Assembly: GCA_022870745.1 (NCBI GenBank)
Contig: CP085323.1
Coordinates: 1,178,001-1,242,000 of the forward strand
Direction: 5' to 3'
Length of the DNA stretch: 64,000 nucleotides
From: Silvibacterium acidisoli
Lineage (GTDB): Bacteria; Acidobacteriota; Terriglobia; Terriglobales; Acidobacteriaceae
Shown here: one piece after another, positions 40,098-43,873 of the stretch
Layout: each line of letters starts with the position of its first letter
Position numbering within the stretch: the first letter of the stretch is position 1
Translations under genes and position numbers: made by a program
The notes under the pieces: generated by a model
What the model was told of the DNA's origin: nothing
What the model saw: the letters and a program-made list of their open reading frames with translations, nothing else
The model's database searches: none

Positions 40098-41198
40098 CTA
40101 GTTCACGAAGCGGTTCATGCGGACATTCATCACCATGCCCAGAGCCAGAAACGTAAACAGTACCGAAGAGCCTCCGTAACTCATCAACGGGAGGGGTATT
40201 CCGGTAACCGGCATCAGCCCTATGACCATTCCCACGTTGACCGCGATCTGAAAGATCAGCACGGCCACCACGCCCATCACCAGGAACGTACCTGAGAGAT
40301 CTGCGGCTGTCTGTGCGTTTTGAATCAAACGCATCAATATGAGGAAGTATATCAGCAGGACCACAACCGCGCCGATAAACCCATGCTCTTCAGCAAATGC
40401 GGCGAAAATGAAGTCCGTGTAAGGAATCGGCAGAAAATCGCCCTGGGTCTGCGTACCCTTGGTCGCACCCCGGCCAAAAACACCGCCGTCACCGACGGCA
40501 ATCTTCGATTGATTGATCTGGTAACCACTGCCCTTGGGGTCGGCATCAGGATTCATGAAGCTGGTCAGACGCGCTTTTTGGTACGGCTTGAGAATCTTGC
40601 CGCTGCCAAAAGCGATTCCGACCAGCAGCAATCCGCAGCTGACGAGGACCAGCGCTTTTTTCCAATCGATACCGCCGAGGAAAAGCCCCGCCAGCAGAAT
40701 AGGCGAATAAGTCAGTGCCGTTCCCAGGTCAGGCTGCTTCAAGACCAGCAGCATGGGTATCCCGACAATTGCCATGGCTTTGCCGATGTCGAGCCAGGAA
40801 AGCTGCTTCCCTGCAAGGTTCACGAAATACTTCGCGATGGCGAAGATCAGGATGAGCTTGACCCACTCCGATGGCTGAAAATGAATGCCTCCAGGCAGCT
40901 TGATCCAGCGCCGCGCGCCCAGCACCTTTGTGCCCACCACGATCACCGCGACCAAAGAAACCAGGCAGAAGCCATAGATCCAATGGATGATGTCGAGAAT
41001 GCGATGGTAGTCCACCAGCGACAGCGCGAACATCGCCACCATGCCGCCCAGAAGCCATAAAATCTGCGTCTTATAAAACCCGACAAACTTGGTATGCAGG
41101 GTAGCCGAGTAGATTTCGAAGACGCTGATAACCGACAGCAACAGCACAAACCCAAGCAGGGTCCAGTCGAAATCGCGGAAGGAGAGAAATCGTCGCAT
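40098..41198 (-). CDS. rodA: RodA, SEDS peptidoglycan glycosyltransferase
   Basis: RodA polymerises glycan strands during lateral wall growth together with PBP2. The 366-residue protein has about ten membrane segments and the SEDS family sequence GGIHFQPSEWVKLILIF, KQPDLGTALTYSP with the essential Asp region, DFIFAAFAEEHGFIGA and IPLPLMSYGGSSVLF. The start codon lies 169 bases from the GIY-YIG gene; in many Acidobacteria I would expect it next to mrdA, so the insertion of the GIY-YIG unit splits the operon. Confidence 0.95.
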   Translation of the reverse strand: MRRFLSFRDFDWTLLGFVLLLSVISVFEIYSATLHTKFVGFYKTQILWLLGGMVAMFALSLVDYHRILDIIHWIYGFCLVSLVAVIVVGTKVLGARRWIKLPGGIHFQPSEWVKLILIFAIAKYFVNLAGKQLSWLDIGKAMAIVGIPMLLVLKQPDLGTALTYSPILLAGLFLGGIDWKKALVLVSCGLLLVGIAFGSGKILKPYQKARLTSFMNPDADPKGSGYQINQSKIAVGDGGVFGRGATKGTQTQGDFLPIPYTDFIFAAFAEEHGFIGAVVVLLIYFLILMRLIQNAQTAADLSGTFLVMGVVAVLIFQIAVNVGMVIGLMPVTGIPLPLMSYGGSSVLFTFLALGMVMNVRMNRFVN

Positions 41199-41244
41199 CG
41201 GGGGCTATCTCATCTTAACGACTTCTGGCGGTATCGGCTAACAA

Positions 41245-41275
41245 GTGCGGATTCCTCACTTCGTTCGGAATGACA
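41245..41275 (+). repeat. 31-bp repeat, variant copy
   Basis: GTGCGGATTCCTCACTTCGT and the following bases match the perfect copies with four changes. In the paired parts TCCC/GGGA has become TTCC/GGAA, a double change that keeps pairing. It lies upstream of rodA. Confidence 0.7.
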
Positions 41276-41333
41276 AAGGGTGTGGTCGGGATGACCAATG
41301 GGTGCTGAGTATCAGCATTGATTCCAATTGAAC

Positions 41334-41364
41334 TGTCATCCCGAACGCAGTGAGGGATCTGCAC
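41334..41364 (-). repeat. 31-bp repeat, left flank of the GIY-YIG gene
   Basis: TGTCATCCCGAACGCAGTGA onward; perfect copy on the minus strand. It ends four bases before the stop codon of the GIY-YIG gene. Confidence 0.9.
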
Positions 41365-41367
41365 CTT

Positions 41368-41667
41368 TTATTTCCGCCAATCCTCGCTGAGGTCATGCCA
41401 CGAAGGGTTTTGCTTCTCAATCAGCGCAAGCTTCTTAGCGCGGCTCCAGCCCTTGATCTCTTTCTCACGATCAATCGCATTGGTGACGTATTGAAAGTGT
41501 TCAAACCACACGAGCCGCTCACACTTGTATTTCTGACTGAAGCCGGGAATGGTGCCGGATCTGTGCTCTTCAACTCGTCTCTGAATACTATTAGTCATTC
41601 CGCAATAAAGAACGCGAGTACGACTGGCAACGATATAGACGTAGTAATGATGGTCTTTCACCGACAA
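41368..41667 (-). CDS. GIY-YIG domain nuclease
   Basis: A 99-residue single-domain protein of the COG2827-type GIY-YIG group. The two-strand core reads YYVYIVASRTRVLYCGMTN (YVY...YCG in place of GIY...YIG), followed by the catalytic Arg in IQRRVEEH, the metal-binding Glu in DREKEIKGWSR, and Asn in KQNPSWHDL. These residues fit an active endonuclease. It starts at a TTG (41667) or GTG (41661); no ribosome site is visible. The flanking inverted repeats overlap its borders. Similar small GIY-YIG genes occur widely in Acidobacteria, to my knowledge without known function. Confidence 0.85.
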   Translation of the reverse strand: MSVKDHHYYVYIVASRTRVLYCGMTNSIQRRVEEHRSGTIPGFSQKYKCERLVWFEHFQYVTNAIDREKEIKGWSRAKKLALIEKQNPSWHDLSEDWRK

Positions 41668-41674
41668 GAGTAAA

Positions 41675-41705
41675 GTGCAGATCCCTCACTGCGTTCGGGA
41701 TGACA
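41675..41705 (+). repeat. 31-bp repeat, right flank of the GIY-YIG gene
   Basis: GTGCAGATCCCTCACTGCGT onward; perfect copy on the plus strand, seven bases from the gene's start codon. It and the copy at 41750 form a second inverted pair with a 44-base spacer. Confidence 0.9.
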
Positions 41706-41749
41706 ACCTTTAGGGTATCTCTCTACTCTTGAGGATATCTCTCTACTTT
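41706..41749. repeat. Spacer with a period-20 direct repeat
   Basis: TATCTCTCTACT occurs at 41716-41727 and 41736-41747 inside the spacer between two repeat copies. Confidence 0.7.
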
Positions 41750-41780
41750 TGTCATCCCGAACGCAGTGAGGGATCTGCAC
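41750..41780 (-). repeat. 31-bp repeat, third perfect copy
   Basis: TGTCATCCCGAACGCAGTGA onward, identical to the left flank copy. It ends 29 bases before the mrdA stop codon. Confidence 0.9.
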
Positions 41781-41809
41781 CTTATATAAACCTCGCACCG
41801 GAACAATCC

Positions 41810-43873
41810 CTACTGCTGCTCTTCCGGCTTTGCGGGAGTAACCGGTGCAGGCTTAGGCACTGCCGGCTTCGGATGCTGAACCGGCTGATCGCCGGCGGCG
41901 GCGTTTCCAGAGGGCTTCAACGCGAAGTGTCCGGTGTGAACGGTCCCCACCGCGTCGGTCGCATCCTCCGCTCCAGCAGCGTCCTTCTTCGCCGGATCGG
42001 CCCAGACTGCGCCGACCTCGACGGGCTTCTCCGCCGCCTCCGCCACGAGATTATGATTCAGACGCCGCTGCTTATCGACGAAGGCCTCGATCACCTTCGC
42101 AGCCAGCGGAGCAGAAACGTTGCCCCAGCCGCCGTGCTGCCAGAAGACGGCAACCACGATGTCCGGGTTGCGACGGGGAGCCATGCCGACGAACCATGCA
42201 TTCGCGCGCTCGTTTACATTTGACGAAACCTTCAGCGCGCCGAAGCTGTGGTTGACGACCTGGGCCGTGCCTGTCTTACCGGCAAAGTCAATATTTTCGA
42301 GGTGATCCGCGAACGCCGTGCCGCCGGGGCCGGTGACCGCGGCCATCCCATCTGTGATCGTCTCCCAGTTTGCCGGATCGATCTGCATGGTCTTGTCGCC
42401 GGAGCCGGGGAAAGAATCCCTCATTGCCGTACGAAACTCCGCAGGCAGTTCATCCGGAAAAACAACATGGGGGCGCTTCAACACGCCGCCCGAGGCGATG
42501 CCGCCGAGCGCCCGAGCCAGCTGAATCGGGGTTGCGGCAACTGCGCCCTGTCCGATACCCACCGAAACAGCCTCGCCTGCGTACCACTTTTCGTGAAAGG
42601 TCTTCATCTTCCACTCGGTGGAGGGCATGACGCCGGTGATCTCATCCGGCAGGTCGATACCTGTCTTCATACCGATACCCAGCCCATGCGCATATTTCGC
42701 GATGGTGTCGATACCCAGGCGCGCGGCAAGATTGTAGTAATAGGTGTCGCAGGAGAGCGGAATGGCATTGTGAATGTCCACCGCGCCGTGATGGCGGTCG
42801 CAGGCGTAAAAGTGGCCGTACAACTCGGCACCGCCCTGGCAATTTACCTTCAGATTTTGCGCGACGCCTTCCTGCAATCCGGCGACCGACATGATGATCT
42901 TGAAAGTCGAGCCAGGAGGCGACTGCGCCTGGATCGCCTTGTTCAGCAGCGGATGATTCGGATCGGTAATGAGCTTGTTCCACTCGTCGCGGCCGATCTT
43001 CACGGCGAAGGCATTCGGGTCGAAGGTCGGGCGGCTCACCATGGCAAGCACCTCGCCGGTATGCGGATCGAGCGCGACAATCGCGCCCTGGCGATCGCCA
43101 AGGGCATTTTCCGCAGCTCTTTGGATGTCCAGATCGATGGTCAGCCTCAGGCTCTGGCCGGGCTTCGAGCGCTCGGTGCCGAGCTTGCCTACTTCGCGGC
43201 CATGGCTGTCGACCAGCACATCGCGCGAGCCGTCGGTGCCGCGCAGGATGGCGTCATAAGAAGCCTCAACGCCGGACTTGCCGACCACGTCGCCAGGTTC
43301 GTAATACGCATAGCGGGGATCGTTCAGCATCTCTTCGCTGACTTCACCCACGTAGCCGATCAGGTGGGCAGCGAATCCGTCTTTTGGATAGAGACGCCGC
43401 TGTTCGTCAACGGTTTCAAGCTCGGGCATCTCGTCACGGTGCGCTTCGATGAACTCCTGTTCGTCGGGCGTGATGTCCTGCTTGAGCGGCAACGGCTGAT
43501 ACTTCGGAGCGGCGCGGTACTTTCGCAGGATGGCGTGGATCTGGTCCACGGTCATGTGCAGGCCGCGAGCGATCAACGGCAGATCCGGCTCGAAGTCGTG
43601 CCCCTGCTCACGAACCAGGAAGCAGGAGACGGACGGATAGTTATCTACGAGGAGACGGCCTTCGCGGTCGAAGATCTGGCCGCGCGGGGCGAGGATCGGA
43701 ACCTTGCGAATGCGATTCGCTTCAGCCAGCGCGCGATAGTTCTCCGCGCCGACGACCTGCAACCTCCACAGTCCGAAGATAAGCACCAGCATGACGCCGA
43801 CGATCACATACTGAAAGATCGTCAGCTTAATCGCCGGGAGCTTTTCTTCCTTCTGTACTACTTCCAGATCCAT
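41810..43873 (-). CDS. mrdA: Penicillin-binding protein 2
   Basis: PBP2 cross-links peptidoglycan during elongation, working with RodA. The 687-residue protein has one N-terminal membrane anchor (IFQYVIVGVMLVLIFGLWRL), the dimerisation/pedestal domain (ANRIRKVPILAPRGQIFDRE), and the transpeptidase domain with SxxK in SPPGSTFK near residue 319, the SxD/N-type motif SCDTYYYNLA and KTGTAQ near 530. A C-terminal Pro/Lys-rich tail of about 70 residues (ending TPAKPEEQQ) is extra. Stop codon lies near the third repeat copy. It follows mreD by 24 bases. Confidence 0.95.
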   Translation of the reverse strand: MDLEVVQKEEKLPAIKLTIFQYVIVGVMLVLIFGLWRLQVVGAENYRALAEANRIRKVPILAPRGQIFDREGRLLVDNYPSVSCFLVREQGHDFEPDLPLIARGLHMTVDQIHAILRKYRAAPKYQPLPLKQDITPDEQEFIEAHRDEMPELETVDEQRRLYPKDGFAAHLIGYVGEVSEEMLNDPRYAYYEPGDVVGKSGVEASYDAILRGTDGSRDVLVDSHGREVGKLGTERSKPGQSLRLTIDLDIQRAAENALGDRQGAIVALDPHTGEVLAMVSRPTFDPNAFAVKIGRDEWNKLITDPNHPLLNKAIQAQSPPGSTFKIIMSVAGLQEGVAQNLKVNCQGGAELYGHFYACDRHHGAVDIHNAIPLSCDTYYYNLAARLGIDTIAKYAHGLGIGMKTGIDLPDEITGVMPSTEWKMKTFHEKWYAGEAVSVGIGQGAVAATPIQLARALGGIASGGVLKRPHVVFPDELPAEFRTAMRDSFPGSGDKTMQIDPANWETITDGMAAVTGPGGTAFADHLENIDFAGKTGTAQVVNHSFGALKVSSNVNERANAWFVGMAPRRNPDIVVAVFWQHGGWGNVSAPLAAKVIEAFVDKQRRLNHNLVAEAAEKPVEVGAVWADPAKKDAAGAEDATDAVGTVHTGHFALKPSGNAAAGDQPVQHPKPAVPKPAPVTPAKPEEQQ

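Follow-up and report, generated by a model that had tools for sequence, protein, structure and literature searches.

What is a small nuclease gene doing between mrdA and rodA, and why is it bracketed by perfect inverted repeats? The 64-kb stretch of Silvibacterium acidisoli DNA analyzed here (the window) contains such an arrangement, and an earlier note on it proposed that the gene and its repeats form a self-spreading unit, similar in idea to REP elements and their RAYT enzymes but with a GIY-YIG nuclease instead of a Y1 transposase. The features of the locus, in window coordinates, are the following.

40098..41198, minus strand: rodA, the downstream neighbor (TIGR02210)
41247..41274, minus strand: REP copy four, degenerate, of the CATTCC/GGAAT subtype (genome 1219247-1219274, 3 mismatches)
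41334..41364, plus strand: REP copy on the 3' side of the nuclease gene, TGTC tag facing outward
41368..41667, minus strand: GIY-YIG nuclease gene, 99 aa, TTG start (Pfam match, structure model)
41675..41705, minus strand: REP copy on the 5' side of the nuclease gene, TGTC tag outward, perfect inverted partner of 41334-41364
41750..41780, plus strand: REP copy three, perfect; the matching stretch extends to 41787 at 97%
41810..43873, minus strand: mrdA, encoding penicillin-binding protein 2 (PBP2), the upstream neighbor (TIGR03423)

The gene cluster reads mreC-mreD-mrdA-rodA, with the nuclease ORF on the same strand between the last two genes. The two bracketing 31-bp repeats are exact reverse complements that stand 3 and 7 bases from the ORF, just as first described, and profile matches agree with the names given to the nuclease and to both neighbors. 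The 100 codons originally counted are 99 amino acids plus a stop, and an alternative in-frame GTG start lies two codons downstream of the TTG. Copies three and four share the mrdA-rodA gap with the bracketing pair. The repeat core had 0 matches in 100 shuffled versions of the window, and an Rfam search of positions 41100-41900 returned nothing at gathering score. A 20-bp direct tandem repeat (CTTTAGGGTATCTCTCTACT, 90%) occupies positions 41708-41747, between REP copies two and three.

The GIY-YIG protein

The sole Pfam family matched by the 99-aa protein at E 0.001 is GIY-YIG (PF01541; E 6.6e-15, 55.6 bits against a cut-off of 22.6), and profile searches of NCBIfam and PHROGs gave no model at E 0.001. 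The Y1/HUH transposase domain, a hallmark of RAYTs, is absent from the protein (Pfam, E 0.001). Among 25 aligned relatives, residues Y11, Y21, G23, H35, E68, and N87 are invariant and R31 is nearly so; we take all of these to have catalytic roles. The profile match and the conserved residues place the protein in the GIY-YIG nuclease superfamily. Structurally, the protein was modeled by AlphaFold2 with high confidence (mean pLDDT 93.2). The closest solved structures by sequence are the stand-alone UPF0213 proteins 1zg2 and 1ywl, and a fold search with the predicted model found 1zg2 as the only match below E 0.001, followed by Slx1 and the UvrC nuclease domain at E 0.01-0.1.

The genome holds two GIY-YIG matches, the window gene and one in a 643-aa frame that is taken to be UvrC from its length; the 5' motif of the REP was not found in the 3.2 kb around that frame. 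In relatives, the nuclease ORFs at loci L055, L038, and L086 appear to run into the 3' REP, which gives C-terminal tails such as ...QVLRCAQDDK.

The repeat and its genomic population

The REP is made up of an unpaired (T)GTC tag, a stem ATCCC/GGGAT, a GA/GA internal loop, an AC/GT step, and a 3-base loop G-N-A whose middle base varies freely. With a few variants, TGTC precedes the stem both in the window and in the genome REP pairs inspected. A genome count of the 31-bp sequence had been suggested, and it gave scattered copies that often form inverted pairs: the 5.36-Mb genome contains 60 copies with at most 3 mismatches to GTCATCCCGAACGNAGTGAGGGATCTGC (33 forward, 27 reverse; control 0), and a wider pattern finds 91 with at most 2 mismatches (control 0). 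Among the 60 copies, 48 are distinct, and in 11 of these 48 the stem pair 6-22 has changed from C-G to T-A. Both the covariation score and the percentage of paired positions in the own-genome copies lie above all 500 shuffles. Two-sided change is confined to 1 of 7 stem pairs, and neither the number of such pairs nor that of pair types is above shuffles.

Inverted pairs with the tags outward are called HH dimers in the REP literature and REPINs in the RAYT literature. Such a pair, with copies 22-46 bp apart, was present at 12 of 24 loci examined, which were drawn from the best 30 of the 60 genome matches. Neighboring pairs less than 300 bp apart among the 60 copies number nine, namely 6 HH, 2 TT, and 1 HT, and both TT pairs belong to the mrdA-rodA locus of the window itself. 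At two loci of the own genome (L014, ~1500-1730, and L030, ~1300-1530) another palindromic repeat (TTTCACCACAGAGGACAC...) lies as cargo within the tag-outward REP pair, which suggests that such pairs may carry other elements. Decayed GIY-YIG remnants were considered for the interior of the two REP pairs that stand ~200 bp apart; none were evident at the sensitivity used, and another palindromic repeat lies there.

RAYT-type enzymes of the same genome might also be considered as mobilizers of the REP. Three Y1 transposase genes are present in the genome (G000).

1897109-1897381: Y1 transposase gene (L260)
781998-782324: Y1 transposase gene (L261)
1030250-1030576: Y1 transposase gene (L262)

Each is bracketed by a different inverted repeat of 23-40 bp, and no copy of the window REP was found within 3.3 kb around any of them. 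These bracketed genes fit the acidobacterial TIRYTs mentioned in the available part of PMC3733652. Since the three Y1_Tnp genes carry other repeats, mobilization of the REP by RAYT-type enzymes was set aside, this being the simplest reading.

Resemblance to CGTC-tagged REPs

Di Nocera et al. (2013) divided bacterial REPs into two super-families, of which the CGTC-tagged one is apparently without a dedicated transposase; in the accessible text of their paper no transposase gene is flanked by CGTC REPs, bar a few fortuitous cases (PMC3733652). The CGTC REPs comprise CGTC-1 to CGTC-4 and include dRS3 of Neisseria and RPE-4 and RPE-6 of Rickettsia, as set out in the same text (PMC3733652). The window repeat has the unpaired [C/T]GTC tag of this CGTC/TGTC super-family, together with its high copy number (60-91 copies) and its preponderance of HH pairs. 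The earlier note had not recognized the repeat as a named family; it resembles the CGTC/TGTC-tagged REPs as far as these are described in PMC3733652, and the pairing of enzyme and repeat was not found in the literature searched. The described class has a stem of 8-9 bp that opens with AT. The stem of the window REP begins AT..AT and has 5 bp (ATCCC/GGGAT) plus AC/GT beyond the GA/GA loop; a long stem is seen in the REPs that flank the related nuclease genes of Alphaproteobacteria. Folded singly as DNA, the short window REP shows no unusual stability (z 0.28), and two long-stem CGTC forms are unusually stable (z -3.9 and -4.7).

A tblastn search of plasmid records with a nuclease relative from Roseibium matched 35 records, 16 of which were fetched as flanks. 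The fetched loci include Azospirillum lipoferum 4B, Novosphingobium aromaticivorans DSM 12444, Sinorhizobium meliloti, and Neisseria gonorrhoeae, all of them named, as species or genera, in the available part of the CGTC-REP paper (PMC3733652). CGTC REPs lie around the GIY-YIG gene in each of these four; in A. lipoferum they form a 36-bp inverted repeat with one mismatch, and in N. aromaticivorans a perfect 31-bp one. With a strict CGTCAT/TGTCAT motif, an outward REP was found on either side at 11 of the 16 plasmid loci and on both sides at 9, against a background of 4/128. N. aromaticivorans and Sphingobium escape this motif, since CGTCGC and CGTCAC stand in its place in their repeats. Rhizobium tumorigenes and Sinorhizobium C101, also among the 16, have no such REP, and the Photobacterium locus has no tag-outward REP. 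The Neisseria locus carries little weight, because the gene there is surrounded by several REPs on both strands.

Association of nuclease and repeat across genomes

Within the same family, the nuclease gene is present in 94 of 150 genomes, in 1-9 copies each. Inverted repeats (score at least 14) bracket the gene at 60 of 70 family loci and in 1 of 122 displaced windows. When flanks were paired across different family loci, inverted repeats still appeared in 14/70 pairings, because the REP motif is common to the loci. A relaxed REP motif (tag, AT, a 3-base stem, and its complement) was found upstream at 54 of the 70 loci, downstream at 51, on both sides at 43, and on either side at 62 (background 8/318), and was missing in any orientation at 5.

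The association extends well beyond the family. A collection of GTDB genomes was scanned with a conserved motif, and the best 80 of 553 confirmed matches were kept; 20 named phyla account for 75 of these, and the other 5 have no phylum assigned. Plain inverted repeats (score at least 14) bracket the gene at 35 of these best 80 of 553, compared with 2 of 268 displaced windows. A tag-outward REP, by the relaxed motif, stands upstream at 53, downstream at 51, on both sides at 39, and on either side at 65 of the same 80 loci, compared with 25 of 1904 background strand-windows (1.3%), each 310 bp long and taken from these loci; tag orientations other than outward are rarer (32 and 29), and 8 loci have the motif in no orientation. 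Among the best 80 of 553, at least one outward-flanked locus occurs in 18 of the 20 phyla, and flanking on both sides in 16.

Genome-wide REP counts were made in the own-family genomes. The copies of one REP subtype have a median of 17.5 in genomes with the nuclease and 4.0 in those without (p 1.2e-4), and at least 20 copies are found in 42/94 nuclease-positive and 13/56 nuclease-negative genomes. Together with the bracketing described above, the counts show the arrangement expected of a functional analogue of RAYT, in which inverted REPs both flank the enzyme gene and are spread over the genome. A Pfam search of the 13 REP-rich negative genomes found long, UvrC-sized GIY-YIG frames in 11, with one shorter frame in addition in G109, and no GIY-YIG match in G087 and G121. 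The exact fraction of REP copies has a median of 0.36 in positive and 0.20 in negative genomes (p 0.027; genomes with at least 10 copies, 61 and 21). The REPs of nuclease-negative genomes are thus somewhat more decayed, though not in all, as G010 and G032 are near-complete negative genomes with fresh-looking copies. Escherichia coli genomes without a RAYT likewise keep REPINs, in smaller numbers, according to the accessible portion of PMC8049555. The REPs of nuclease-negative genomes leave room for another mobilizer.

Repeat subtype follows nuclease clade

If the nuclease acts on the REPs, the two would be expected to vary together. In a tree of 88 nucleases, those with the short GA-type REPs and those with long-stem CGTC-type REPs part almost cleanly. 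Across phyla, REP type changes 3 times on the tree (all groups) compared with 16.1 times when labels are shuffled (0/200 as low). Removal of one long-stem row (L223) gave 3 against 15.3, and removal of two long rows (L194, L225) again 3, against 15.2. The GA side forms a single branch with a support of 92 (89 without the two long rows), on few alignment columns.

The composition of this tree bears on how it is read. REP labels were assigned to 166 loci (G 119, P 13, mixed 11, other 5, no REP found 18). As G rows the tree has 63 that do not belong to the 70 family loci, 7 of the family's 56, and L055, a mixed locus entered as G. For the 14 long-stem (P) rows, L170 was removed by hand, L196 (mixed, with a clear REP) was put in, and L223 was included. 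The unflanked group consists of L220, L221, and L224, which are rows without a REP, and 14 further rows without a REP, 9 mixed, and 5 other rows were left out. The cross-phylum match is weakened by the small number of alignment columns and by the origin of the long-stem rows, 11 of the 14 having been supplied by a single search with a P-type protein as its seed.

The host does not account fully for the match. The nuclease of Winogradskyella (Bacteroidota), which has a long-stem REP, groups with the proteobacterial ones, its place as a long row being unsure. Among Pseudomonadota with GA-type REPs, L175 (Lysobacter), L146, and L192 sit among the GA rows, and L162 and L206 (Rhodospirillales) fall just beside the long-stem group and outside it.

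A finer correspondence is seen within the own family, where the three bases after the stem follow the nuclease clade (10 changes vs 20.6 shuffled, 0/200). Several nucleases share a genomic locus, so the family test was redone with one row per locus. This set comprises 46 of the 70 rows, of which 41 have a tail and 34 a tail class that recurs, the REP parts having been typed by hand. Tail type then changes 7 times vs 11.7 (0/200) and one of the stem bases 7 times vs 13.2 (0/500); a coarser split, TGC vs other, is weaker (9 vs 13.8, 6/500 as low). On these comparisons REP subtype follows nuclease clade, with enzyme and REP co-varying. In Stenotrophomonas, RAYT and REP trees have been reported with the same topology in the available text of PMC2817692.

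Sites with and without the gene

The mrdA-rodA junction of relatives provides insight into whether the element moves. An empty junction in close relatives had been named as a check, and it exists: leaving G152 aside, in five genomes of the same genus (G154, G141, G150, G153, G117) the junction measures 0-22 bp and has no nuclease gene. The gene is also absent from the 550-bp junction of G066, in the same genus, and from 19 more resolved junctions elsewhere in the family and beyond. The junction of G151, again of the same genus, contains a 67% identical nuclease with its own REP-like repeats, and in two further genera (G119 and G035) the nuclease gene is found with the same flanking genes on both sides as in the own genome. 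The presence of the nuclease at mrdA-rodA in genomes of three genera makes it long-resident, not freely moving there. By these sequence comparisons the mrdA-rodA element is either an old one with patchy loss or one gained more than once. At the same junction in G009 (L119), 221 bp without a nuclease hold what appears by eye to be a lone REP-like hairpin ending AAGATGACA.

The idea of a self-spreading unit therefore holds in part: filled and empty sites in relatives favor it, and long residence in three genera counts against it at mrdA-rodA. The earlier note would have doubted a mobile unit on two findings taken together, a repeat frequent far from GIY-YIG genes and a lack of empty sites. The 31-bp repeat is indeed frequent far from such genes, yet this is REP-type behavior, and empty sites are present.

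Clearer cases of presence and absence come from alphaproteobacterial replicons. At sufB-sufC of A. lipoferum, the gene lies between two REP pairs, and three relatives (94-95% identity) have neither gene nor REP. A Shinella sp. PSBB067 replicon (L228) has a different nuclease and different REPs at sufB-sufC than A. lipoferum (L213), the site having been equated by alignment, and these look like independent insertions into one operon gap. Of seven aligned Sphingobium plasmids, 3 are filled, 2 have a single near-symmetric CGTC...GACG palindrome, and 2 are without a REP. Over 50 kb compared in three Sphingobium plasmids, one of two REP pairs is seemingly in one strain only. At gltA-lpxB of S. meliloti Ak57 (L215, ~1000-2100), an internally truncated nuclease copy with REP ends lies beside a full copy, possibly a sign of how a miniature unit could arise from a complete one, and Sinorhizobium K101 has one near-symmetric palindrome at gltA-lpxB (L229). 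The gene-free palindromes (L230 and L232 of Sphingobium; L229) resemble the two flanking REPs reduced to their outer halves, and the symmetric CGTC...GACG palindrome at gene-free sites may be a scar or a target.

No target-site duplication was seen by eye when the A. lipoferum, Sphingobium, and Sinorhizobium sites were compared with relatives; the edges are untidy, and a clean uninterrupted recognition site was not seen among the sites compared. An empty-site comparison of one own-genome REP pair with the rest of the genus was set aside, the sequences being too diverged (best ~67% identity).

Proposed mechanism and alternatives

The best explanation of these observations is a REP/RAYT-like system with a small GIY-YIG nuclease in place of the Y1 transposase, to which cleavage and mobilization would fall. 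The bracketing REPs, their scattered population, the inverted pairs, and the match of subtype and clade all uphold the analogy first drawn by the earlier note. We put the probability that the 99-aa protein is the dedicated partner enzyme of [C/T]GTC-tagged REPs, as RAYT is for GTAG-tagged REPs, at about 0.7.

In such a system, the nuclease would recognize the hairpin or cruciform formed by an inverted REP pair in single-stranded or supercoiled DNA and nick at the hairpin base, beside the GTC tag. Cutting of branched DNA is plausible because the predicted fold is Slx1-like, and Slx1 is described as a structure-specific nuclease in the available text of PMC6902002. The copied unit would be the REP pair or, rarely, the pair with the nuclease gene inside. 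GIY-YIG enzymes hydrolyze DNA and are not known to join it, so the copy of the REP pair would have to be made and inserted by host replication and break repair. Insertion by host repair would account for the untidy edges and for the symmetric palindromes at gene-free sites. The gene itself would move rarely and be inherited at old sites such as mrdA-rodA, with the REP pairs as the mobile part. For the wider proposition, that these are transposase-free mobile repeats, CGTC/TGTC REPs copied across phyla by a structure-specific GIY-YIG nuclease of ~100 aa and joined by host repair, we see the chances as evenly balanced.

The main rival holds that another enzyme makes and moves the REPs and that the GIY-YIG gene is a homing passenger, whose product cuts REPs so that recombination copies the gene into REP pairs. 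Homing endonucleases classically include GIY-YIG enzymes (PMC1564403, as far as its text was available), REPs persist in genomes that lack the nuclease gene, and two REP pairs of the own genome, ~200 bp apart, carry a different palindromic repeat as cargo. The single CGTC...GACG palindrome at alphaproteobacterial gene-free sites, which takes the place of REP-gene-REP in the filled allele, could be a target for such a gene as well as a scar. However, there is no need for a passenger's clade to agree with the REP subtype from locus to locus; the three Y1 transposase genes of the own genome are bracketed by other repeats, and the accessible part of PMC3733652 reports no transposase flanked by CGTC REPs beyond the few fortuitous cases. 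We regard the passenger as unlikely, though it deserves to be taken seriously.

Alternatively, the protein may be a domesticated resolvase or repair factor that trims REP cruciforms or hairpins, in which case the linkage would serve regulation or protection rather than spread. This would suit the long residence at mrdA-rodA and other shared loci, as well as a predicted fold nearest to UPF0213 and to Slx1, a branched-DNA nuclease; RAYTs are likewise described as domesticated in the available text of PMC8049555. Such a host function nevertheless leaves the bracketing of the gene itself without explanation, and the patchy distribution (94/150 genomes, 1-9 copies, absent at the same junction in same-genus genomes) is not that of a housekeeping gene, which makes this a decidedly improbable reading. 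Chance co-occurrence of REPs and small GIY-YIG genes in intergenic gaps could draw on the abundance of REPs in these genomes and on the many Neisseria REPs on both strands around the gene, but it is scarcely credible and largely contradicted by the controls, since among the best 80 of 553 loci REPs are ~50-fold above background on each side (with control windows not restricted to intergenic DNA) and tag-outward copies are favored (53 and 51 vs 32 and 29), and since REP subtype matches nuclease clade.

Recurring as it does with such repeats across many bacterial phyla, the GIY-YIG nuclease is the strongest contender for the role of missing partner to a repeat class that is large and has been recognized for many years. 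If this is true, it answers the question from 2013 of what mobilizes CGTC REPs, as posed in the accessible text of PMC3733652, and very common bacterial intergenic hairpins gain an owner. REP systems would then have arisen at least twice from unrelated enzymes, the second origin being independent of RAYT. The question can be tested directly with one 100-aa protein and a short DNA hairpin.

Comparison with known systems

The REP class, RAYT systems, and GIY-YIG nucleases are each already known, and what appears new is the pairing of CGTC/TGTC REPs with GIY-YIG genes, which was not seen in the literature searched. That search, of open-license literature without preprints and not exhaustive, found nothing linking GIY-YIG genes with [C/T]GTC REPs, and a search with the letters of the REP core found nothing about these repeats by title or start of abstract. 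A Moraxella paper, judged from its accessible part, was set aside as a chance co-occurrence of terms.

On the protein side, UPF0213 (1zg2, 1ywl) and Slx1 are the nearest solved structures by sequence or by fold. Slx1 differs in being eukaryotic and acting with Slx4, and no association of UPF0213 or Slx1 with REPs was seen in the literature passages and listings at hand. Homing endonucleases of the I-TevI type share the GIY-YIG catalytic domain and a mobile-DNA context, according to the available text of PMC1564403. They differ in that the window protein consists of the GIY-YIG domain only, in 99 aa (Pfam), and in that the repeats on both sides of its gene are scattered through the genome as well. 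Insertion sequences are known by their target-site duplication, which elements of the window type lack, by eye, at the compared sites.

On the side of the repeat, the CGTC REPs described in the accessible text of PMC3733652 are alike in their [C/T]GTC tag, in a stem opening with AT, and in pairs that are mostly HH. The window repeat differs from them in its short outer stem, GA/GA internal loop, and small inner stem, and its tail reads CTGC, not CCA. That text names five phyla with CGTC REPs, and Acidobacteria are not one of them.

With the REP/RAYT (REPIN) systems the comparison takes in enzyme and repeat together. The enzyme here is a GIY-YIG nuclease of ~100 aa, whereas RAYT is a Y1 (HUH) tyrosine transposase, and the tag is [C/T]GTC where RAYT REPs have GTAG. 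Joining chemistry is not expected of a GIY-YIG partner, unlike RAYT. The nuclease reaches up to 9 copies per genome, while RAYTs are described as single-copy in the available text of PMC8049555. Both kinds of system have an enzyme gene between two inverted REPs, REPs scattered through the genome, and inverted pairs, and in both the REP type tracks the enzyme clade, enzyme-positive genomes have more REPs, and the enzyme is long-resident, as far as RAYT systems are described in the accessible parts of PMC2817692 and PMC8049555.
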